Part shown: one piece after another, positions 1,952-61,578 of the stretch
Layout of the letters: every line of letters starts with the position of its first letter
Numbering within the stretch: position 1 is the stretch's first letter
Assembly: GCA_022563855.1 (NCBI GenBank)
Contig: JADFMN010000009.1
Span: 1 to 64,000 of the forward strand
Length of the DNA: 64,000 nt
Reading direction: 5' to 3'
DNA from: Armatimonadota bacterium
GTDB lineage: Bacteria > Armatimonadota > Fimbriimonadia > Fimbriimonadales > Fimbriimonadaceae
Made by a program: the position numbers and the translations under genes
The notes under the pieces: model-generated
What the model saw: only the letters and a program-made list of their open reading frames with translations
Told to the model about the DNA's origin: nothing
Database searches by the model: none

Positions 1952-3388
1952 ATGCTCGTGTCTCTCGCGCTGATGGCGGTTTCGACGACTGCGCCGGTGA
2001 ACGTCGTGTTCCTGTTCACCGACGACCACAGGCGGACGGCGGTCGGCGCGTTGGGGATCGAGCCGGTGAAGACGCCGAACATCGACAGCCTGCTCGCAGA
2101 GGGCACCTTCTTTCAGAACGCGTACACGATGGGCAGTCCGCACGGGGCGCTTTGCGTGCCCAGCCGGGCGATGCTGATGACCGGGCGGAACCTTTGGCAC
2201 ATCGGCCCGCGCAACCCCGAGACGGGCGCCGTCGACGTAGGGCGCATCAGGGAAGAGTTCACGACGTGGCCCGAGGTGTTCCGCGCGAACGGCTACGAGA
2301 CGTTCGGCACCGGCAAGTGGCACAACAACCGCGACGCGTTCAACCGGCTTTTCAGCCACGGCGGGGCGATCTACTTCGGCGGCATGCACTGGCCCGACAC
2401 GAACGGCCACTTCGAGCCGCGAATCCACTGGTTCGACCCGACGAGCGACTACCCTGAGAGCGACCGCAAGCACCTGAAGACTTTTTCGAGCGAGCTATAC
2501 GCCGACGGCGCGATCGACTTTCTGCAGAACACGCGCGACAAGGAAAAGCCGTTCGTGATCTACGTCGCGTTCTCCTCGCCGCACGACCCGCGCAGCGCGC
2601 CACAGGAGTATCACGACATGTACCCGCCGGCGGAGATCGAGCTGCCGCCGAACTTCGCGCCGATCCACCCGTTCGACAACGGCGACATGAACGTGCGCGA
2701 CGAGAAGCTGTCGCCGGTGCCTCGCACGGTCGAGCGTACGAAGAAGGAGATCTCCGACTACTACGCGATGGTGAGCGAAGTCGACTTCCACATCGGGCGC
2801 ATCCTGGCGGAGCTGAAAAGGCAAGGGCTGGACCGCAACACGATCGTCGTGTTCGCCGGCGACCACGGCCTTGCGGTCGGTCAGCACGGGCTGCTCGGCA
2901 AGCAGAACGTCTACGAGCACAGCATGGGCCTGCCGCTGGTGTTCCGAGGGCCGGGAATCCCGCGCGGAAGAACCAGAGAGTCGTTCGTCTATCACCACGA
3001 CGCAGGTCCGACGCTGTTAGAACTTGCGGGTCTGGAAGTGCCCGAAACGATGGAGTCGAAGAGCCTCGTCGAGGCGATCAAGTCCCCCGGAGTGCAGGTG
3101 CGCGAGTCGATCTACTTATCGTATCAGAACAAACAGCGCGCAGTGCGGGTCGGTGATCTCAAGCTGATCCTCTACAATGTGGATGGCGTCGAGCGCACGC
3201 AGTTGTTCGACCTCTCGACCGACCCCTGGGAGATGCAGAATCTCTTTATTCTTTACGGCAGGCCCGGCGAGTTCGGTCCGGGGCAACGCCTCCTAAACGC
3301 GTTGAGAGCACGGATGAAGGAAGAGGACGATCCGGCGTACGAGATCTTCTTCGGGTCATCGTCCGAGGAAGATCGCATTGAGCAGTAG
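1952..3388 (+). CDS. Sulfatase (arylsulfatase/iduronate-2-sulfatase-like)
   Basis: This 478-residue enzyme should hydrolyse sulfate esters, probably of a polysaccharide, outside the cytoplasm; a short hydrophobic N-terminus (residues 1-14) may be a signal peptide. The sulfatase signature CVPSR-x4-TGR lies at about residues 68-79, with Cys68 the residue that would be converted to formylglycine. A metal-binding pair of Asp sits near residue 24 (FLFTDDHR), and the C-terminal GDHG motif is near residue 308. An FGE or anSME activating enzyme is not in the window. The last residues (DRIEQ) are encoded by DNA that, on the other strand, is an orphan peptidase tail, so the native C-terminus may have been replaced. 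Confidence 0.92.
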   Translation: MLVSLALMAVSTTAPVNVVFLFTDDHRRTAVGALGIEPVKTPNIDSLLAEGTFFQNAYTMGSPHGALCVPSRAMLMTGRNLWHIGPRNPETGAVDVGRIREEFTTWPEVFRANGYETFGTGKWHNNRDAFNRLFSHGGAIYFGGMHWPDTNGHFEPRIHWFDPTSDYPESDRKHLKTFSSELYADGAIDFLQNTRDKEKPFVIYVAFSSPHDPRSAPQEYHDMYPPAEIELPPNFAPIHPFDNGDMNVRDEKLSPVPRTVERTKKEISDYYAMVSEVDFHIGRILAELKRQGLDRNTIVVFAGDHGLAVGQHGLLGKQNVYEHSMGLPLVFRGPGIPRGRTRESFVYHHDAGPTLLELAGLEVPETMESKSLVEAIKSPGVQVRESIYLSYQNKQRAVRVGDLKLILYNVDGVERTQLFDLSTDPWEMQNLFILYGRPGEFGPGQRLLNALRARMKEEDDPAYEIFFGSSSEEDRIEQ

Positions 3389-3427
3389 CTTGTACGTGCC
3401 CGGCCACATCGCGCGGCTCAAGTCCTC
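3356..3427 (-). pseudogene. Orphan C-terminal tail of an M14 peptidase paralog
   Basis: Read on the minus strand this gives ED-L-SRAMWPGTYKLLLNAIFLGR followed by TGA. The intact M14 gene 553 bp away ends with the same residues except ILLGR for IFLGR. Fifty bases are identical; beyond them the match continues at the protein level with mostly third-position changes up to the stop codon. There is no start codon and no upstream homology. The fragment lies antisense to the last codons of the sulfatase gene. Confidence 0.75.
3369..3418. repeat. 50-bp perfect direct repeat, copy 1
   Basis: It is identical base for base to 3922-3971. The two copies flank the ankyrin-lipoprotein gene. Copy 1 overlaps the sulfatase stop codon. 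Confidence 0.9.
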
Positions 3428-3437
3428 TTTTCTGTCT

Positions 3438-3443
3438 TATAAT
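3438..3443 (+). promoter_or_regulatory. Consensus -10 box (TATAAT), leaderless ankyrin lipoprotein
   Basis: A perfect TATAAT ends 6 nt before the ATG at 3450, so transcription should begin at the start codon. Confidence 0.65.
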
Positions 3444-3449
3444 GTCTGC

Positions 3450-3851
3450 ATGAGGGTTAAAACCGTCTTACTGTTTCTTGTCGCGTGTCTCGTCGTAGTT
3501 CCGATAATCGGCTGTTCCGGCGAGAAGATGAGCCTTGAGTACAGGCTGATGCTCGCGTGCGGGAGCGGGGATGTCGATGCCGTGAACGATCTACTTGAGC
3601 AAGGTGCTAGCGCCAACGGTGGCGAGGACATGGAGGGAGTGCCACTGTTTGCTGCGCTGAGCGAGGGCAACCTTGCGATCGCCGACATTCTGGTCGACAG
3701 CGGCGCGGATATCGACGTCCTCTTCGACGGCGAGTCTCTGCCTGACCTGTTCAAGAATGAAAAGGACGACTCGGACGACGAAGTCGAAAGGGAAAAGCTC
3801 CAGAGTGCGATCGACTGGCTCAATGCGCGGGGGGCTCGGCCCCCTCCGTAG
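3450..3851 (+). CDS. Ankyrin-repeat lipoprotein
   Basis: This 133-residue protein has a type II signal peptide with a hydrophobic core and lipobox IIGC (Cys at about residue 22), so it is probably a membrane-anchored lipoprotein. Residues about 30-100 hold ankyrin-like repeats (ACGSGDVDAVNDLLEQGAS; LSEGNLAIADILVDSGADI). An acidic Asp/Glu-rich stretch and a helix follow. Ankyrin repeats bind proteins; no catalytic domain is present. The gene sits between two copies of a 50-bp direct repeat and carries its own promoter and terminator, so it looks like a small inserted unit. The ATG at 3450 is chosen over an upstream TTG at 3378 because of the TATAAT box and the signal peptide. Confidence 0.8.
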   Translation: MRVKTVLLFLVACLVVVPIIGCSGEKMSLEYRLMLACGSGDVDAVNDLLEQGASANGGEDMEGVPLFAALSEGNLAIADILVDSGADIDVLFDGESLPDLFKNEKDDSDDEVEREKLQSAIDWLNARGARPPP

Positions 3852-3883
3852 TAGTCGCTGACTTCTTGCTGGGGAACGCTTCG

Positions 3884-3905
3884 CCACGTATTGGACGTGG
3901 TTTTC
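3884..3905 (+). terminator. Rho-independent terminator of the ankyrin lipoprotein gene
   Basis: A CCACGT-attgg-ACGTGG hairpin (3884-3900) is followed directly by TTTTC. It lies 33 nt after the stop codon and just before the convergent M14 gene end. Confidence 0.65.
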
Positions 3906-3908
3906 GTG

Positions 3909-6410
3909 TCAGCGGCCGAGCAAGATCGCATTGAGCAGTAGCTTGTACGTGCCCGGCCACATCGCGCGGCTGGTCGGGTCTTGGGCAAACCACACGACGT
4001 GCCCTCGACCGACCTGCTCGTCGTGCAGCCACACCGTGCCTTTCAAAGCAGTGATGGTTTCGTCCGGCCACACCCAGCCGCTGACCACCTTTGGCTCGTC
4101 GCCGAGCAGCACGACTCCGCCGCCTTCTTTCTTCGCCTTGTAGTAGGTCGCGCCCGAGACCGGCACCGCGAACGGCAGACTCGTATCGTAGCCGTAAGCC
4201 AGCGGCGAGCGCGGATTGAGGGTCGCGGCGAACACTGTGCCGGGAAGGGAAGGCGGGTTCTTGTCGTCCTCCAGCTTCGAACGCTCCAACTCGAAGAAGC
4301 CTTTCTCGCCAAGCAGAGAAGTCCCGCCGAACAGCACGAGCGAGCCGCCGTCGGTCACCCACTCCTTCAGGTTGTCGGACATCGAATACGAACTGCGCGG
4401 AAGGATGATGCACGTGAACTCACTGAGGTCGCCGTTCAGCGCGCGCGCGCCGATCGGCGTAAACGGGATTTCAAAATGTTGCTCTAATGCGAACCAGATT
4501 CCGCCGAAGCGCGTACCGTTCGGCTGGTCGCCGAATACGACTGCGATGTTTGGTTTACCTAAAGATCGCACACTCCCAGATCCCGGCCCGACAACTCCGG
4601 TGGCGGGGAAACTCGTGTCGAGCGGTTCGGTGTTTCGGGCGCGGTTAAACAGAATTGAGTCGACAATTTCGTCTTCCAAGTCCGCGTTTCGATCACGAAA
4701 CACAAAGAACGTACCGGCCGGAACAGTCCGTTCATCGATCTGCATCTCCTTCGTCGCCTGGTGAACACGGACTCCTTTTTGCAAAAGCTCGATCACCGCC
4801 AGGGCGTCGTCCTGGTCCCGGTACGGAATCATCCAGCCAACCTTGCCTCCAGCAACAATGTTCATTCCACGAAGAGGCAAATCCTCGATCTGTGGCGTTG
4901 ACGAGCTCCAATACGCTTGCAGACCGTGCGCGAGCGGCAGGCTCCAGCCGGTCGAATCGTAGAACTCAGGCCTGTCGCGCGAGGGGTACTGCTCGTCCTC
5001 TTTCAGCTCGTCGCGGATCTTGAGTTGGCGCTCTGTGAACTCGTCTTCGAAGTCCTGGCCGGGAGCGAGAAGCGCCTTGGCGAACGGCCCGTTCGGTTGC
5101 GCGAGATCGACGACAAGAGAATCAGAGAGCGGTCCAAGATCCACGGCTTCGTCGTCGTAGAAAGATCGCGCGCTTTGTTGTACGCCGATCGTCATCGATG
5201 AAACGATTCCAGCGGAAAAAAGAACGCTTTGGAGGCGTGAGAGCGCGCGCGAATCGCCAGTGATGATGATCCGTTTCATCGCGTCGGCGTGTTCGCCGGA
5301 GACTGCCTTTCTCTTGAACTCCGCGAAGCTCGCTAGCAGGTCGTCTTTGTTCGCCGCTGCCGAACCGATCACGGCGAGCGCGCTTGTGAAATGCTTCGCC
5401 ACTCCGTCGGTCAGGGTGACGAGCGAACCGTCCTCGCGCTCGCGCTGCACGGCGCGACCGCCGTCGGTTTCATGCGTCATGCCGATCGAGCCCACAAGGC
5501 TTGTTGAGCTGTCGAGGTAACCGGGATAGTACAGGTCAAACGTCTTGCGGACGAAGTACCGCCAGCCGTTGCCGTCAAACGCGTTGGCCGTCGCCTTGCC
5601 GAAGATGTCGCCCCACTTTTCATACCGCTCGCGATCGACGCCGGCGTGCACGGACTGCGCGACGGGAGGGAAGAAGTACGTGCCGACCTGGCCGTGCTGA
5701 TCGACGTATACCTGCGGGTTCCAGCGCAAGAACTCCGTGAACTCCATGCGCGTCTCCTGCTGCGAAAACGACACGCGGTCGCGGTTCAGATCAAAACGGT
5801 AGTGGTTCGTGCGACCGTTCGCCATGCGGGCTTCCGCGTGTTCGACCGCCTGCGGATCTTGATGTCCGATGGAGATCGAGTTGTACCAGACGACGAAGCG
5901 CTCGTGGCCGTCGGGGTTGTACACCGGGTTGACGATGACGATCGCATCGTCGAGCATCTTGGTTATCTGTGGATGCTTGGACGCCGCGAGCGTGTAGGCC
6001 AGCCACATGCCGGATTCGAAGCTGGCAGTCTCGTTGCCGTGGATGCACTCGTTGATCCAGACGATCGCGGGCAGATCGTCTGACGGTTGTGCCTGGCCGG
6101 CGGCTACACGTGCGTTCTCTTGTCTGATCTCTTCCAGCCTGCCGATGTTCGCACGGCTGCCGAACACCATGATCCGTAGCGGTCGCCCCTCGGTACTTTC
6201 GCCGAATTGGAAGACGCGAACTCGGTCGCTTGCGGCATCAGAGATTCCGCGCATCACCCGCTCCTGGTCGCGGAAAGTCGTGTGCCTCTCCCCCGGCCCG
6301 TAGCCGAGGATCGACTCAGGCTTCGGCACACCTTCGGCGTACGGGCCGTAGGCGTAGAAGTCGAAGTCAGCCGAATGCGTGGCGAGAGCGAGGGCGAGCG
6401 CAACGATCAT
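3909..6410 (-). CDS. M14 family zinc metallocarboxypeptidase, secreted
   Basis: This 833-residue peptidase should remove C-terminal residues from peptides outside the cytoplasm; residues 1-14 are a short signal-like segment. The M14 zinc ligands are visible: His124 and Glu127 (ECIHGNE) and His239 (VDQHGQ). Glu314 (THETDGG) is the candidate general base. NPVYNPDGHE and DLNRDR are family substrate-site motifs. A long C-terminal extension (about residues 400-833) holds a GATase1-like or beta-sandwich portion of unknown role. The start at 6410 is chosen because TACAAT lies 7 nt upstream; an ATG at 6521 would extend into the divergent promoter region. Its 3' end is one copy of the 50-bp repeat. 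Confidence 0.9.
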   Translation of the reverse strand: MIVALALALATHSADFDFYAYGPYAEGVPKPESILGYGPGERHTTFRDQERVMRGISDAASDRVRVFQFGESTEGRPLRIMVFGSRANIGRLEEIRQENARVAAGQAQPSDDLPAIVWINECIHGNETASFESGMWLAYTLAASKHPQITKMLDDAIVIVNPVYNPDGHERFVVWYNSISIGHQDPQAVEHAEARMANGRTNHYRFDLNRDRVSFSQQETRMEFTEFLRWNPQVYVDQHGQVGTYFFPPVAQSVHAGVDRERYEKWGDIFGKATANAFDGNGWRYFVRKTFDLYYPGYLDSSTSLVGSIGMTHETDGGRAVQREREDGSLVTLTDGVAKHFTSALAVIGSAAANKDDLLASFAEFKRKAVSGEHADAMKRIIITGDSRALSRLQSVLFSAGIVSSMTIGVQQSARSFYDDEAVDLGPLSDSLVVDLAQPNGPFAKALLAPGQDFEDEFTERQLKIRDELKEDEQYPSRDRPEFYDSTGWSLPLAHGLQAYWSSSTPQIEDLPLRGMNIVAGGKVGWMIPYRDQDDALAVIELLQKGVRVHQATKEMQIDERTVPAGTFFVFRDRNADLEDEIVDSILFNRARNTEPLDTSFPATGVVGPGSGSVRSLGKPNIAVVFGDQPNGTRFGGIWFALEQHFEIPFTPIGARALNGDLSEFTCIILPRSSYSMSDNLKEWVTDGGSLVLFGGTSLLGEKGFFELERSKLEDDKNPPSLPGTVFAATLNPRSPLAYGYDTSLPFAVPVSGATYYKAKKEGGGVVLLGDEPKVVSGWVWPDETITALKGTVWLHDEQVGRGHVVWFAQDPTSRAMWPGTYKLLLNAILLGR
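3922..3971. repeat. 50-bp perfect direct repeat, copy 2 (inside the M14 gene 3' end)
   Basis: It is identical to 3369-3418 and encodes the C-terminus of the M14 peptidase on the minus strand. Confidence 0.9.
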
Positions 6411-14054: not shown

Positions 14055-17000
14055 CTACTCGGACGTGCCTTTGCCTGCGGCCTCGGCCTCGGCCTGGCCT
14101 GCCTGCAACAGTTCGAACATGCTGCCGCGCTTCGACCAGTACACAGCGCCTGCTAGAGCAAGGGCTGCTATCACAGTAATCGTGATCAGCACTGCATCCG
14201 ACCTCGGCATGATGACGATCGGCACCATCAGGAGCGCGACGAGGTTCATGACCTTGATCAGCGGGTTGAGCGCAGGGCCGGCAGTATCCTTGAACGGGTC
14301 GCCGACAGTATCGCAGACGATTCCTGCCTCGTGAGCCTTGCTGCCCTTGCCGCCGTACATCCCGTCCTCGATCAGCTTCTTCGCGTTGTCCCAGATACCG
14401 CCGGAGTTGGCCAGCATCACCGCTAGCAACTGACCCGACACAATTGCGCCAACGAGGAATCCGCCCAGGGCTTGCGCACCGACCAGGTTGCCTTCCTTGC
14501 CGATGGAGAAACCGAACCCGACAAGGACCGGGAACGCGATAGCGAGCACCGCTGGTCCGATCAGCTCCTTCTGAGCTGCCTTGGTCACGATGGCCACGCA
14601 CTTGGCGTAGTCCGGCTTGCTCGTTCCGGCTAGAATGCCGGGGTCGTTTCTGAACTGTGCTCGAACGTCGTTGATCAGCTCGAACGAGGCTCTGCCGACT
14701 GCGTTGATCGCGAAGGCGGAGAAGAGATAGGGCGCCGCGCCGCCGATCAACACTCCGAGGAATATCTCCGGAACTTGCAGCGGCATGCCGACTACCGTCA
14801 GTCCGCCCTCCTCGACGTATGCGTGGAACAGAGCGACGGCGGCAACAACGGCTGTCGCGATGGCGAAGCCTTTCGTCAGCGCCTTGGTCGTGTTGCCGGC
14901 GGCGTCGAGCCGCTGAATAGCCTTTGCCGCTTCGGGGTGGGTCTTGTTTGCTCCAGACATTTCGAATATGCCTTGCGCGTTGTCAGAGATCGGCCCGAAA
15001 GTATCCATCGCCAAGATGAACCCCGTGGTCGTCAGCAGGCCGAGTCCGACGAGCGCAATGCCGTAGAAGCTGAGCAGGTATCCGCCGTACTCCGCTGGGT
15101 TGAACACCAGAAGCGGCATGATGAGCGAGACCACGATCGCCAGCAGGCTGAACACCGACGACTCCTTGCCCAGCGCGAAGCCTGTGATTATCATCGGTGC
15201 AGGCCCTGCCGTCGATACGCCTGCGACCTCCTGGACTGGTTTGCCGCGCAGGCTCACGTAGTAGTCCGTAAGCTTCTCGAACACGAAGGCCATGAGTATG
15301 CCGAAAATGATGCACAGGGCAAACTGCCACCAGGCCGCTGTGTGCTGCTCGATCGTCGCTATCTTCGCGCGGAACTCCTGCGGCATGCGCTGGGCGGGGT
15401 CGAGCAGCAATGCGTCGTACGCGGTCTTCACCGTCTTCACGTCGCTCTTATAGAAATTGATGCCTGGGTTCGCAGGATTCGGACTTCCCGGCGAACTCTC
15501 TAGCAGATAGGATGCCAGGTGTTCTTCTCCTTTGCTGATCGCAGCTCGAACGTCTCCTTCAGAATTCGAGTACAGCGTCACATCGAATTTGTTCACGGTT
15601 TCAAACTGCTGCTGAAAGCTGGCCGCCTGCTCCTTTATAGCGCTGAACTGATCCTCGGACATCGGGCCGTAGTACGACCGCTGGGTACTCGTCGTAGCCG
15701 GTGGCTGCCCTCCAGCCGCCGGTATTTGGAAGTCTGCGGTTGTGATCTCCACTTCATAGACAAAGAGATCGTTGTCTTCGTACGCCTCGCCAAACGTAAT
15801 GATCGTCGGCTCTTCGCCGAAACCCTCAGCAGCCTTGAAAACCGTATAGCTCAGCACCGGATTGTCTTCATCGGAGAAATTGATCGGCTTGAAGTGCTGA
15901 AGGTTTTTTGCCGGCTGTACGTCGACTTCCTCGGTAAAAATCGCGACCGAAACAAAGTCTCTTCGCCTAGGACCTAGCGCTCCGTCTTCCGGAAACATCG
16001 CGTTGAACCTTTCGGACTCGAGGATTTTGTCGACAGAGATCGTGTATTTTGGAACGTCCTCATCTTCGCTCAGTTCATCGAGAATCTCGTGGATGGCCGC
16101 GAAGTCTTCAACCAGTTGGGTCTCCGACGAAATCAGTTCGTTGGAGACGACTAATTCGGATTGCGATTTCGGCCCGCCCATCATGAAGTAAGCAAGACCC
16201 AAAGTCGCAGCGATCGCGATGAGCGCGGAACTGTTGAAACCGCGCCGTATCAGCCTCAGCGGATCCACGTCGATGTCGTCGGATCCCTTGACCATGAAGA
16301 TGCCCACGATCGACGCAATGATGCCGACGCCGCGGGCCATCAGGGCGAAGAGGATCAGGCGCATCCAAGTCTCTTGGTCGAACATCGTCGCCGTCGCAGC
16401 GCCGAGCACCAGCGCGGCAACCAGCGTCACCTCGTACGACTCGAAAATGTCCGCCGCCATCCCGGCGCAGTCGCCGACGTTGTCGCCGACGTTGTCGGCG
16501 ATCGTCGCCGGATTTCGCGCATCGTCCTCTGGAATGCCGGCTTCTACCTTGCCGACAAGGTCCGCTCCTACGTCGGCAGCCTTGGTAAAGATGCCTCCAC
16601 CGACGCGCATGAACAGCGCCGCGAGCGAACCGCCGAACCCGAATCCGATCAGCAGCTTCATCGCGTCGCCCTTCGCGATCATGAAGATGAGCGTTGCGCC
16701 GATCAGCCCCATGCCGACCGTTACCAGCCCCGCGACGGCTCCGGCCTTGAACGCGATTTCCAGCGCGTTCTTGAAACTGCTGATCGCCGCGTGCGCGGTG
16801 CGCGTATTGGCGTTGACCGCCATGATCATGCCGATGTAGCCAGCAAAGTACGAAGCCGCGACACCACCGATGAAGCTGAGCGAGATCCACAGTGCCAGCA
16901 TCTCGTCGTATCTGCTGCTGAACATGAAGAACAGGCCGATCGCAAGCAGAAGGACGAAAACGGACATCATCGTTACCTGCTGCCTCAGATATGCGAGCGC

Positions 17001-17288
17001 GCCGGATTTGATCGCGGCGCCGACTTCCTGCATCTTCTCGTCGCCCGAAGACTGGCGCATGACGTACCTGCTGATCAGCCAGCCGACAAAAAGCGCAACG
17101 ACGCCGAACCCGAGCGATATGTATAGGTAAGTGAAGTCCGACTTGGTGAAGTGGAGGGAGACGCTCCCTCCGCCTGCGGCGAATGCAAAAGACGGCACCA
17201 AGAACGTTGAAATGGCTGCGACAAGCGCGAGCCGTCGAGTCCGCACTCCACGCAAGAGCTTTAGGAGCGATTTGAATACCAAAGACAT
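14055..17288 (-). CDS. hppA: Membrane-bound proton-translocating pyrophosphatase, long form
   Basis: HppA couples hydrolysis of pyrophosphate to proton export across the membrane. The substrate motif DVGADLVGKVE is at residues 239-249, with DNVGDNVGDCAGMAAD following. GNTTKALTKG at 798-807 has Lys802 and Thr805, the pair that marks potassium-independent H+-PPases. The protein is 1077 residues; typical members are about 700. The excess is an acidic, hydrophilic insert at about residues 372-650 between membrane helices. I chose ATG 17288, which leaves a signal-like N-terminus; the frame is open to 17375. The gene is not in an operon with its neighbours. Confidence 0.95.
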   Translation of the reverse strand: MSLVFKSLLKLLRGVRTRRLALVAAISTFLVPSFAFAAGGGSVSLHFTKSDFTYLYISLGFGVVALFVGWLISRYVMRQSSGDEKMQEVGAAIKSGALAYLRQQVTMMSVFVLLLAIGLFFMFSSRYDEMLALWISLSFIGGVAASYFAGYIGMIMAVNANTRTAHAAISSFKNALEIAFKAGAVAGLVTVGMGLIGATLIFMIAKGDAMKLLIGFGFGGSLAALFMRVGGGIFTKAADVGADLVGKVEAGIPEDDARNPATIADNVGDNVGDCAGMAADIFESYEVTLVAALVLGAATATMFDQETWMRLILFALMARGVGIIASIVGIFMVKGSDDIDVDPLRLIRRGFNSSALIAIAATLGLAYFMMGGPKSQSELVVSNELISSETQLVEDFAAIHEILDELSEDEDVPKYTISVDKILESERFNAMFPEDGALGPRRRDFVSVAIFTEEVDVQPAKNLQHFKPINFSDEDNPVLSYTVFKAAEGFGEEPTIITFGEAYEDNDLFVYEVEITTADFQIPAAGGQPPATTSTQRSYYGPMSEDQFSAIKEQAASFQQQFETVNKFDVTLYSNSEGDVRAAISKGEEHLASYLLESSPGSPNPANPGINFYKSDVKTVKTAYDALLLDPAQRMPQEFRAKIATIEQHTAAWWQFALCIIFGILMAFVFEKLTDYYVSLRGKPVQEVAGVSTAGPAPMIITGFALGKESSVFSLLAIVVSLIMPLLVFNPAEYGGYLLSFYGIALVGLGLLTTTGFILAMDTFGPISDNAQGIFEMSGANKTHPEAAKAIQRLDAAGNTTKALTKGFAIATAVVAAVALFHAYVEEGGLTVVGMPLQVPEIFLGVLIGGAAPYLFSAFAINAVGRASFELINDVRAQFRNDPGILAGTSKPDYAKCVAIVTKAAQKELIGPAVLAIAFPVLVGFGFSIGKEGNLVGAQALGGFLVGAIVSGQLLAVMLANSGGIWDNAKKLIEDGMYGGKGSKAHEAGIVCDTVGDPFKDTAGPALNPLIKVMNLVALLMVPIVIMPRSDAVLITITVIAALALAGAVYWSKRGSMFELLQAGQAEAEAAGKGTSE

Positions 17289-17420
17289 AGACAGGCGACC
17301 CCCGAACCCACTCAAGACAGGCATACAAAAACGACCTGACGACCGTAGGCTCAGTTCACGGCTAAGATACCTCAAGCCCGATTCTGGACGCGCCCACCTT
17401 GAGGACCTCGGGGCAGGGTG

Positions 17421-21623: not shown

Positions 21624-21646
21624 ATGATCCCGGAGAGAAAAAAACA

Positions 21647-22642
21647 ATGATCCGAAAAGCCGTTATAGCAGTTCTTGCGGTGGCTGCAGTCGGTGTCGTG
21701 GCGTTATCGTTTGACGCCGGACACCTAGCTCCATTCGTCAAGACTCTCAACTCGGCCGAAGGCTTGGACGTGTCCTACACCGTCCAAGAGGTAGGGCGAA
21801 CATCAGCTTCCTACCATGTAACTTTGGCGAAACCTGATCTTGCAATGATCGACACGCCTGCGAAGACGTTCTACGCAGATGGCGAGACGATCACGACCTA
21901 TGACAAAAAGCGCAACAAGTACTTCACGAAAGAGCAGACTCATGAAGCGCTCACGGGCCTGTTCGACGACGATGATCTAGCAATCTGGCGGTCGTTCTTC
22001 GACTCCAAGGCGATGGACCGAATCTACTCTAGCAAGAACGAGGGCACGAAGAAGCGCAGGGGCGAGACCCTTCGCGTTATTTCTGCGGTCGTCAATCGCA
22101 ACGGCGATTCCTCGTTCACGCTGTATATCGGAGAGTCCGACGGCCTGCTGAAACAAGCCCAGTTCACATCGACTGCTACGGGTTCGTCATCGACCAAGAT
22201 TCTGAACACGAAGTCGATCAACACGAAAGCTGTTGCGTCGGCAACGTTCGCCTTCACGGCGCCTGAAGGGGCCGAAGAGATGACCGTAGCCGACCTATCG
22301 TCGTCCGAGTGGATTACGGAGTTCGATGTCGCGCTGGAGAACGCCGCCGCGCTCGGCAAGGGAGTCATCATCGACTTCTACGCTGACTGGTGAGGCTTCT
22401 GCAAAAAGCTTAAAGCTGAAGTTTTCAGCAAGGATTCATTCAAAGCTCTGGTTGTAGAGGATTTCGTTCTCGTAAAGGTCAACACGGATCATAACCCGGC
22501 CCTGCAGTCGAAGTACGGGGCAAACGCGTTGCCGACCGTTGTGTTCCTGAACAGCAGCGGCGACGTCATTCACAAGTTCGTCGGTTACAAGCCGTACGAC
22601 GCGGTAGTGAAAGAGGTAGCGAAGGCAAGAGCCAAGCTCTAA
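21647..22642 (+). CDS. Selenoprotein: LolA-like domain fused to thioredoxin domain with Sec-Gly-Phe-Cys site (TGA at 22391)
   Basis: Read through TGA at codon 249 the protein is 331 residues. Residues 1-24 are a signal peptide or anchor. Residues about 30-225 form a LolA/DUF2092-like domain (beta-rich, with FYADGETITTYDKKRNKYF). Residues about 232-331 form a complete thioredoxin fold: VIIDFYADW-U249-GF-C252-KKLKAEVF, cis-proline loop ALPTVVF, and VGYKPYDAVVKEV. The TGA replaces the first Cys of the WCxxC motif, the usual place for selenocysteine in such redox proteins. The likely role is thiol-disulfide exchange on exported proteins. A SECIS-like hairpin follows the TGA and selA is in the same window. 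Conventional gene calling would end it at 22393. Confidence 0.85.
22391..22432 (+). promoter_or_regulatory. UGA Sec codon and candidate bacterial SECIS hairpin
   Basis: After the TGA (22391-22393) the transcript can fold GCTGA (22415-22419) with TCAGC (22425-22429) around loop AGTTT, extended below a 3-nt bulge by CTT/AAG. The loop starts 26 nt after the UGA and has G at its second position, within the published bacterial SECIS consensus (loop 16-37 nt away, G in the first two loop bases). The hairpin is inside coding sequence, as in other bacteria. Confidence 0.65.
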
Positions 22643-22656
22643 AAAGTATAGTCTCG

Positions 22657-22702
22657 GGATCGACGTATCCGGATTGACGCCCGAATGTGGGCGTCGATCC
22701 GG
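22657..22702 (+). other. 3'-UTR hairpin after the selenoprotein gene
   Basis: GACGCCC-gaatgt-GGGCGTC forms a perfect stem near 22675-22694, and the outer GGATCGACG/CGTCGATCC halves offer an alternative longer pairing. It lies between the stop codon and the terminator. No T-tract follows, so it is probably a separate structural element. Confidence 0.45.
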
Positions 22703-22714
22703 TCGTTGTGAGAG

Positions 22715-22747
22715 GCCCCCAGCGAACGGCTGGGGGCTTCTTCTTTT
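22715..22747 (+). terminator. Rho-independent terminator of the selenoprotein gene
   Basis: GCCCCCAG (22715-22722) pairs exactly with CTGGGGGC (22730-22737), followed by TTCTTCTTTT. It isolates the selenoprotein transcript from the dehydrogenase operon. Confidence 0.85.
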
Positions 22748-60243: not shown

Positions 60244-61578
60244 ATGTCAGACTTTCGTGCCCTGCCCAGCGTCGATTCCGTCATGCGCGAGCCTGCCCTG
60301 GCCGGGTACAGCGAGCGGGTTCGCGGGCTAGCGGCAAAAGCTGCGGTCGAGTCGGCCAGAGAGTCCATACGGGCCGGTGCGGAGCAAACGACTGAATCTG
60401 TGGTGGAGACTGCCGCGCAGGTGGCGGAATCGATCGCCAAGGCGACCCTGGCCCCCGTGATCAACATGTCCGGCGTCGTGCTGCACACCGGCCTCGGGCG
60501 GGCAAGGCTGTCGACCCAGGCGAGCGAGGAGATCGCTGCCGTCGCCAAAAACCACGCCACGGTGGAATTCGACCTGCCGACGGGGAAGAGGGGGAACCGT
60601 CAAGACCACGTCCGAAGCCTGATCTGCGAGCTGACGGGCGCGGAAGACGCGTTCGTCGTGAACAACTGCGCGGCCGCCGTCGTGCTGGTCTTGGCGACGC
60701 TGTGCCGCGGCCGCGAGGTAATCCTTTCGCGCGGGCAGATGATCGAGATCGGCGGTTCGTTCAGGCTGCCGGATATCGTGACTGCGAGCGGCTGTAAACT
60801 GATCGAGGTCGGATGCACGAACAAGACGCACCTCTCCGACTACAGCCGCGCGCTGGGCGAAGATACCGCTGCGATTTTGCGCTGCCACCCGAGCAACTTT
60901 AAGATCGTCGGCTTCCAGGAGGAACAGTCCGCGCACGACCTCTCTGGCATCTGCAAAGAGCACGGCGTTCTGCTCATCGACGACGTGGGGAGCGGATGCC
61001 TCGTCGATACGACGAGGTTCGGGCTGCCGAGGGAGCAGACCCTTCGCGAGGCGATATCGGCTGGGGCAGACGTTGTGATGTCGAGCGGTGACAAGCTCTT
61101 GGGCGGTCCTCAGGCCGGGTTGATCATGGGTCGGCGCGACCTCATTGCCCAGATCTCCAGGCATCCGCTGGCCCGCGCGGTGCGAGTCGGCAAGATGACG
61201 CTCGCCGGGCTGCACGCGACGCTCGAGCTGTACGCCGAGGGGCGGGAAATGGAGATCCCGATCTGGCGCTACATCGCCAAAGAAGAGTCGCAGGTCAAGA
61301 AGGCCGCAAACCGAATCGCGAAGGCGTGGTCTGGCGACTCGGTGGTAGAGAAGGCGGGAACCGAAGTGGGAGGCGGTTCGATGCCGACGGCCACCGTGCC
61401 TACATGGAGAGTCGGTCTGAAATCTGACGATGCAGACGCTTTGCTCGCCCGGCTGCGAGGCCTCGATCCTCCCGTGATCGGCTACATCGCCGACGGAACG
61501 GTGTGGCTCGATCCGCGCACCGCCGACGATTCCGAAGTCGCCACGGTAGTCGATCACTTTCGGGCGATGAGCCAGTGA
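60244..61578 (+). CDS. selA: L-seryl-tRNA(Sec) selenium transferase
   Basis: SelA converts seryl-tRNA(Sec) to selenocysteinyl-tRNA(Sec) with selenophosphate, supplying Sec for in-frame UGA codons such as the one at 22391. The 444-residue protein starts with the LPSVDSVM motif, has VINMSGVVLHTGLGRA near residue 72, and the PLP lysine Lys284 in SSGDKLLGGPQAG. Length is normal. The start could also be ATG 60223, 5 nt after TATTCT. The HD-GYP gene overlaps its stop (GTGA). selB, selC and selD are not in the window. Confidence 0.95.
   Translation: MSDFRALPSVDSVMREPALAGYSERVRGLAAKAAVESARESIRAGAEQTTESVVETAAQVAESIAKATLAPVINMSGVVLHTGLGRARLSTQASEEIAAVAKNHATVEFDLPTGKRGNRQDHVRSLICELTGAEDAFVVNNCAAAVVLVLATLCRGREVILSRGQMIEIGGSFRLPDIVTASGCKLIEVGCTNKTHLSDYSRALGEDTAAILRCHPSNFKIVGFQEEQSAHDLSGICKEHGVLLIDDVGSGCLVDTTRFGLPREQTLREAISAGADVVMSSGDKLLGGPQAGLIMGRRDLIAQISRHPLARAVRVGKMTLAGLHATLELYAEGREMEIPIWRYIAKEESQVKKAANRIAKAWSGDSVVEKAGTEVGGGSMPTATVPTWRVGLKSDDADALLARLRGLDPPVIGYIADGTVWLDPRTADDSEVATVVDHFRAMSQ

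Follow-up and report, generated by a model that had tools for sequence, protein, structure and literature searches.

Does the in-frame TGA within a LolA-like/thioredoxin reading frame end a protein, or does it encode selenocysteine (Sec) at the redox centre of a longer one? This question is raised by a locus in the window analysed here, a stretch of 64,000 nucleotides from an Armatimonadota genome (3.18 Mb, 22 contigs, 96% complete). Standard annotation would end the protein at residue 248, losing the active site. Here we combine analyses of reading frame, homology, Sec machinery, a family of Sec and Cys forms, and a computed hairpin, which together indicate that UGA 249 is almost certainly recoded as Sec.

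Reading frame and gene boundaries

A TGA-interrupted frame with a UGFC active site was confirmed at this locus. The single frame runs from the ATG at 21647 to an in-frame TGA at 22391-22393, continues for 82 codons, and closes with the TAA at 22640-22642. Coordinates of the gene and its features are summarized in Table 1. The TGA falls exactly on the first Cys position of the CxxC motif (FYADW-U-GFC-KKLK), with the ALPT loop and its cis-proline further on. Cys 252 is the sole Cys of the protein, such that U249 and C252 otherwise stand alone. The downstream terminator hairpin (22710-22742) has a calculated energy of -33 kcal/mol; a simple terminator scan missed it, probably because its T-rich tail was drawn into the stem. 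Seven of the 18 well-formed genes in the window terminate with TGA, making TGA an ordinary stop there. The position of the TGA, the 82-codon continuation with a thioredoxin core, the cis-proline loop, the final TAA, the strong terminator, and the normal use of TGA as a stop elsewhere had all been described in the original prediction, and each was recovered in our analysis. In addition to the terminator hairpin, RNA folding showed a long GC-rich hairpin with a 14-pair stem between the TAA and the terminator (22659-22701).

Several properties identify the region past the TGA as coding, including its homology, the invariant Cys 252 and cis-Pro 296, its identity to homologs, and its GC pattern. 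Against 58 homologs, mean identity was 38% for the 82 codons past the TGA and 33% for the LolA-like part; GC content by codon position was coding-like past the TGA (0.56/0.30/0.68) and flat past the TAA (0.60/0.56/0.56).

Table 1. Positions in the window, strand, and supporting evidence for the predicted selenoprotein gene, its features, and selA.
Feature	Position	Strand	Evidence
Predicted selenoprotein gene	21647..22642	+	Reading TGA as Sec gives 331 residues up to the TAA; ~75 full-length or near-full-length homologs
GGAG, possible ribosome-binding site (weak)	21632..21635	+	11 nt before ATG; from sequence
Hydrophobic N-terminal export signal or anchor (predicted), residues 1-21	21647..21709	+	Hydrophobic N-terminus in 57/59 homologs
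DUF2092/LolA-like domain, residues 50-213	21794..22285	+	Pfam PF09865, 1.1e-7
Thioredoxin domain, residues 222-325	22310..22621	+	Pfam Thioredoxin_7 and Thioredoxin, each 1.6e-15
TGA, predicted selenocysteine 249	22391..22393	+	First Cys position of CxxC; TGA in 12 other fused homologs, Cys in 47
Cys 252, resolving Cys of UGFC (predicted)	22400..22402	+	Invariant, 59/59 homologs
bSECIS candidate GCUGAA-GUU-UUCAGC	22415..22429	+	Loop 27 nt after UGA, starts G then U; fits loop, stem, G, and spacing rules of PMC13188914
cis-Pro 296, thioredoxin fold	22532..22534	+	Present in 59/59 homologs
Intrinsic terminator	22710..22747	+	14-pair stem, hairpin 22710-22742, then CTTTT; RNA fold
selA, L-seryl-tRNA(Sec) selenium transferase	60253..61563	+	NCBIfam TIGR00474, 513.7 bits vs cut-off 267.9

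Selenocysteine machinery, Sec and Cys forms, and the downstream hairpin

Confirmation of selB, selC, and selD in the genome had been proposed as a check on the original prediction; all three were found, together with selA. An ARAGORN tRNA-SeC with anticodon tca (Rfam, 74 bits) represents selC. It scores above its curated cut-off, as do selB (345 bits), selD (359 bits), and selA, which sits in the same window, 38 kb from the fusion gene. The selD gene (locus L016, C4:338766-339668 of the same genome) itself carries an in-frame TGA (VKCAGUASKLGP) at the known Sec position of SelD. The organism is therefore expected to make selenoproteins, independent of the fusion gene.

Homologs were searched in 291 genomes of the phylum using a cut-off of 1e-22. 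Full-length fusion relatives were present throughout the family to which the window belongs and in three further families of the same order. Among the genomes searched, the rest of the phylum yielded thioredoxin-domain matches only and no fusion, and a scan of named genomes returned thioredoxin-domain relatives only. In this sample, the fused family was found only in one order. A total of 60 fused relatives, the window's gene included, were extracted, and 59 proteins entered the alignment and tree. At the codon for residue 249, 13 of the 60 fused genes (window included) carry TGA and 47 encode Cys; the corresponding alignment column holds U in 12 rows and C in 47. Two of the 13 Sec forms (L048 and L049) encode identical proteins. 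None of the homologs stops at this codon, as comparison with Cys-containing relatives, also proposed originally, revealed: 12 read on past the same TGA and 47 past a Cys.

In the tree of 59 proteins (quick search, support by SH-aLRT only), the Sec/Cys state changes 6 times, with 5 changes forced by well-supported branches. The two forms also differ in the residues that separate position 249 from Cys 252. These are GP in 35 of the 47 Cys forms, and the dipeptide ends in Pro in 38/47 Cys forms versus 0/12 Sec forms (p = 2.6e-7, an optimistic value given that the sequences are related). GF was confined to Sec forms and GP to Cys forms; the GF of the window's protein is thus of the Sec-form type. 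One genome (G041, contig C94) holds a natural Sec/Cys pair in tandem, in which a Sec form with UTYC (L113, 2120-3130) lies directly upstream of a Cys form with CGPC (3158-4315) on the same strand. The roughly five to six Sec/Cys switches, the absence of the CGPC Pro from Sec forms, and this tandem pair provide a natural series for studying why bacteria choose Sec over Cys.

Distribution of the Sec forms follows that of the Sec trait. Above-cut-off selA was detected in 72 of 125 tested genomes and in all 13 genomes with a Sec fusion (hypergeometric p = 4.6e-4); the remaining 53 relatives, which lack selA, contain no Sec form. Above-cut-off selB was detected in 11 of the 12 Sec-form genomes searched (G114 fell outside that search), the sole negative being G072, a genome that is 88% complete and in 320 contigs.

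Two further groups of related genes were encountered. Shorter thioredoxin proteins of relatives (L101-L110) have TGA in place of the first CxxC Cys (UGWC, UGYC, UHWC, UPSC, and others), indicating several Sec-thioredoxins in this lineage; when hairpins were scanned under a looser rule, several of these genes had no SECIS-like hairpin of the fused-family kind. The window's own genome contains a paralog (L076, C1:534958-535740 and beyond) that is 41-43% identical across its DUF2092/LolA-like part. It was considered as a Cys copy of the fusion and rejected, given that it is without thioredoxin and that its C-terminal part differs, carrying an HEFFHMIDEEW motif like that of a zinc peptidase.

According to the published bSECIS consensus (PMC13188914), the loop is 3-9 nt long, tops a stem of 4-16 bp, and lies 16-37 nt from the UGA; G occurs within its first two nucleotides, which are mostly GG or GU, and the energy does not exceed -7.5 kcal/mol. 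The window hairpin fits the loop, stem, G, and spacing rules, as do 11/11 scanned Sec forms, and its energy is -6.5 kcal/mol in isolation and -9.9 kcal/mol with the surrounding 57 nt, the threshold lying between these values. Folding of the whole 60-nt stretch after the UGA gave no excess structure (z = +1.03), and for this reason only the consensus hairpin was tested. Under the G[G/U] rule, all 11 distinct Sec forms scanned had a fitting hairpin, where shuffling of their synonymous codons predicts 4.2 (combined p = 2.8e-4, which is optimistic due to shared ancestry of some Sec sequences); among Cys forms the count was 14/47, with 11.5 predicted (p = 1.0). Sec and Cys forms differ in hairpin energy at p = 1.3e-6. 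A looser rule, accepting G at either of the two opening positions of the loop, separated the forms more weakly (combined p 0.011; Sec versus Cys p 0.003). One Sec form outside the shuffle test (L111) has AACG(GGA)CGTT at a suitable distance, as judged by eye. Tested alone against synonymous shuffles, the window hairpin is marginal (p = 0.064). Considering this value, the borderline energy, and the shared ancestry, hairpin support is good for the group and modest for the window.

Alternative readings of the UGA

A single base separates TGA from TGC or TGT, and the window derives from an assembly of 22 contigs; an ordinary Cys homolog could have been turned into an apparent Sec form by a sequencing or assembly error, a doubt that the original prediction itself had raised. 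Had a point error struck a Cys gene recently, however, the neighbouring residues would still be CGPC-like, not the Sec-type GF found here, and TGA occupies this codon in a further 12 fused genes from 12 other genomes, all with selA. Sequencing error is therefore very unlikely. It is similarly hard to maintain that the UGA is a real stop, either in a decaying pseudogene or in a gene that now makes the LolA-like domain only. While UGA is a normal stop in 7/18 window genes, and the same genome has DUF2092 proteins without thioredoxin, the frame contains no frameshift and no other stop, and the 82 downstream codons are as conserved as those upstream, retaining the cis-Pro, Cys 252, and a coding-like GC pattern. 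Loss exactly at the redox Cys in 13 genes, and in selA genomes only, would be unexpected from decay.

Sec insertion competes with termination in bacteria, and the genome has stand-alone DUF2092 domains. A dual output could accordingly be envisaged, in which a UGA-terminated LolA-like protein and a full-length Sec protein are both functional and their ratio is set by selenium supply. We consider this improbable: the short product would stop partway through the thioredoxin domain, with only the first strands made, and would probably be unstable, and no conserved feature suggests regulated termination. Reading of the UGA as a residue other than Sec, through suppression or a change of code, is scarcely credible. 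Nothing was found in its favour except the open frame, whereas UGA ends 7/18 window genes, only the redox-Cys position is affected, and the genome has full Sec machinery.

Domain architecture, predicted function, and related proteins

The N-terminus of the window protein contains no lipobox. Given the hydrophobic start in 57/59 members of the family, the protein is very probably exported, and a periplasmic location is predicted. The original prediction of a LolA/DUF2092-like domain is borne out by the Pfam match to DUF2092 (PF09865), which scores 31.9 bits versus a cut-off of 21.2, and by a family profile of the N-terminal domain alone, which finds solved LolA structures (best E 4.5e-5). Among 54 fusion members, 45 match DUF2092 and 25 match LolA in Pfam. 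The NCBIfam lolA equivalog cut-off was missed (13.6 vs 112 bits), and we therefore regard the domain as LolA-like, a distant relative and not LolA itself. The thioredoxin domain (PF00085/PF13899) scores 57.4 bits versus cut-offs of 23.5 and 27. A single-sequence structure prediction of the protein (mean pLDDT 38) was set aside.

In the mechanism that we propose, SelA, SelD, and tRNA-Sec would make Sec-tRNA, and SelB, held by the hairpin 21-36 nt past the UGA, would deliver it, such that UGA 249 is read as Sec and the ribosome completes the thioredoxin domain before reaching the TAA. In its mature, periplasmic form, the protein would combine a LolA-like hydrophobic-ligand domain with a thioredoxin carrying the UGFC active site. 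Attack of the Sec selenolate on a disulfide and resolution by Cys 252 would allow it to act as a thiol-disulfide reductase or isomerase, while the LolA-like domain may recruit a lipidated or hydrophobic client or dock the redox domain at the membrane. Its most likely function is thus that of a periplasmic selenol-disulfide reductase or isomerase whose hydrophobic-ligand domain recruits a client or positions the protein at the membrane; the redox direction we infer from domain logic.

Periplasmic thioredoxin-like proteins usually receive their reducing power from DsbD, and the genome encodes a complete DsbD of 779 aa with alpha, membrane, and gamma parts. Electrons may well come from this full-length DsbD, and the chances that the protein is a reductase fed by it appear about evenly balanced. 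That the client is a lipoprotein or lipid, as domain logic suggests, is a tentative proposal. Equally speculative is an order-wide periplasmic family whose LolA-like domain binds lipids or lipoproteins and either hands its cargo to a Sec/Cys-switching thioredoxin or is under redox control by it; if true, this would constitute a selenium-dependent step in quality control of envelope lipoproteins or lipids.

The original prediction treated the architecture as undescribed, and this holds in part. The Sec fusion and its order-wide spread are new, whereas UxxC Sec-thioredoxins and the kinship of DUF2092 and LolA were known (PMC13188914; PMC4520260). A 2026 inventory of 119 prokaryotic selenoprotein families/subfamilies includes Sec-thioredoxin (UxxC) and Sec thiol:disulfide interchange proteins (PMC13188914, its Table 1) and lists no DUF2092 or LolA fusion, while a 2015 paper (PMC4520260) had described the DUF2092-LolA kinship, including a conserved hydrophobic cavity. 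Literature searches found no publication combining 'selenoprotein' and 'DUF2092' and no Armatimonadota selenoprotein paper, and NCBIfam has no model for the Sec fusion. Given its absence from inventory, literature, and NCBIfam, we consider the Sec LolA-like/thioredoxin fusion a domain architecture new among bacterial selenoproteins. Sec is probably used in the cell envelope by a whole bacterial order that has received little study.

Comparison with known proteins further delimits the family. Bacterial Sec-thioredoxins (UxxC, PF00085) and Sec thiol:disulfide interchange proteins (PF13098) resemble the fusion in having Sec first in CxxC, a thioredoxin fold, and bacterial SelB/bSECIS decoding (PMC13188914, its Table 1), but are listed without an N-terminal LolA-like domain, and the fusion is predicted to be exported. 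The N-terminal domain matches both DUF2092 and LolA families (PF09865, PF03548) and is here joined to a redox domain. The thioredoxin part aligns to the C-terminal part of the TsoB rhodanese/DsbD fusion-like selenoprotein (NF045694) at 56.7 bits, far under the 805-bit cut-off; TsoB has other domains and a UxxxxU Sec motif. The Trx7/PDZ domain (seleno)protein (NF041199) is likewise a selenoprotein in which Trx7 has a fusion partner, but the partner is a PDZ domain and the motif is CxxU, and the LolA-like/thioredoxin fusion scores 24.4 bits versus a cut-off of 300. Like the C-terminal (gamma) domain of DsbD (PRK00293 match, 50.8 bits), the fusion would be a periplasmic thioredoxin-like thiol reductase; unlike it, the fusion is not membrane-embedded and has a LolA-like partner and Sec, and the complete DsbD of the genome is separate.

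Elsewhere in the window, a membrane pyrophosphatase of ~1100 aa is encoded on the reverse strand (14055-17375). Membrane pyrophosphatases are usually ~700-800 aa long; in this protein, the family models match two stretches with a large insertion between them.
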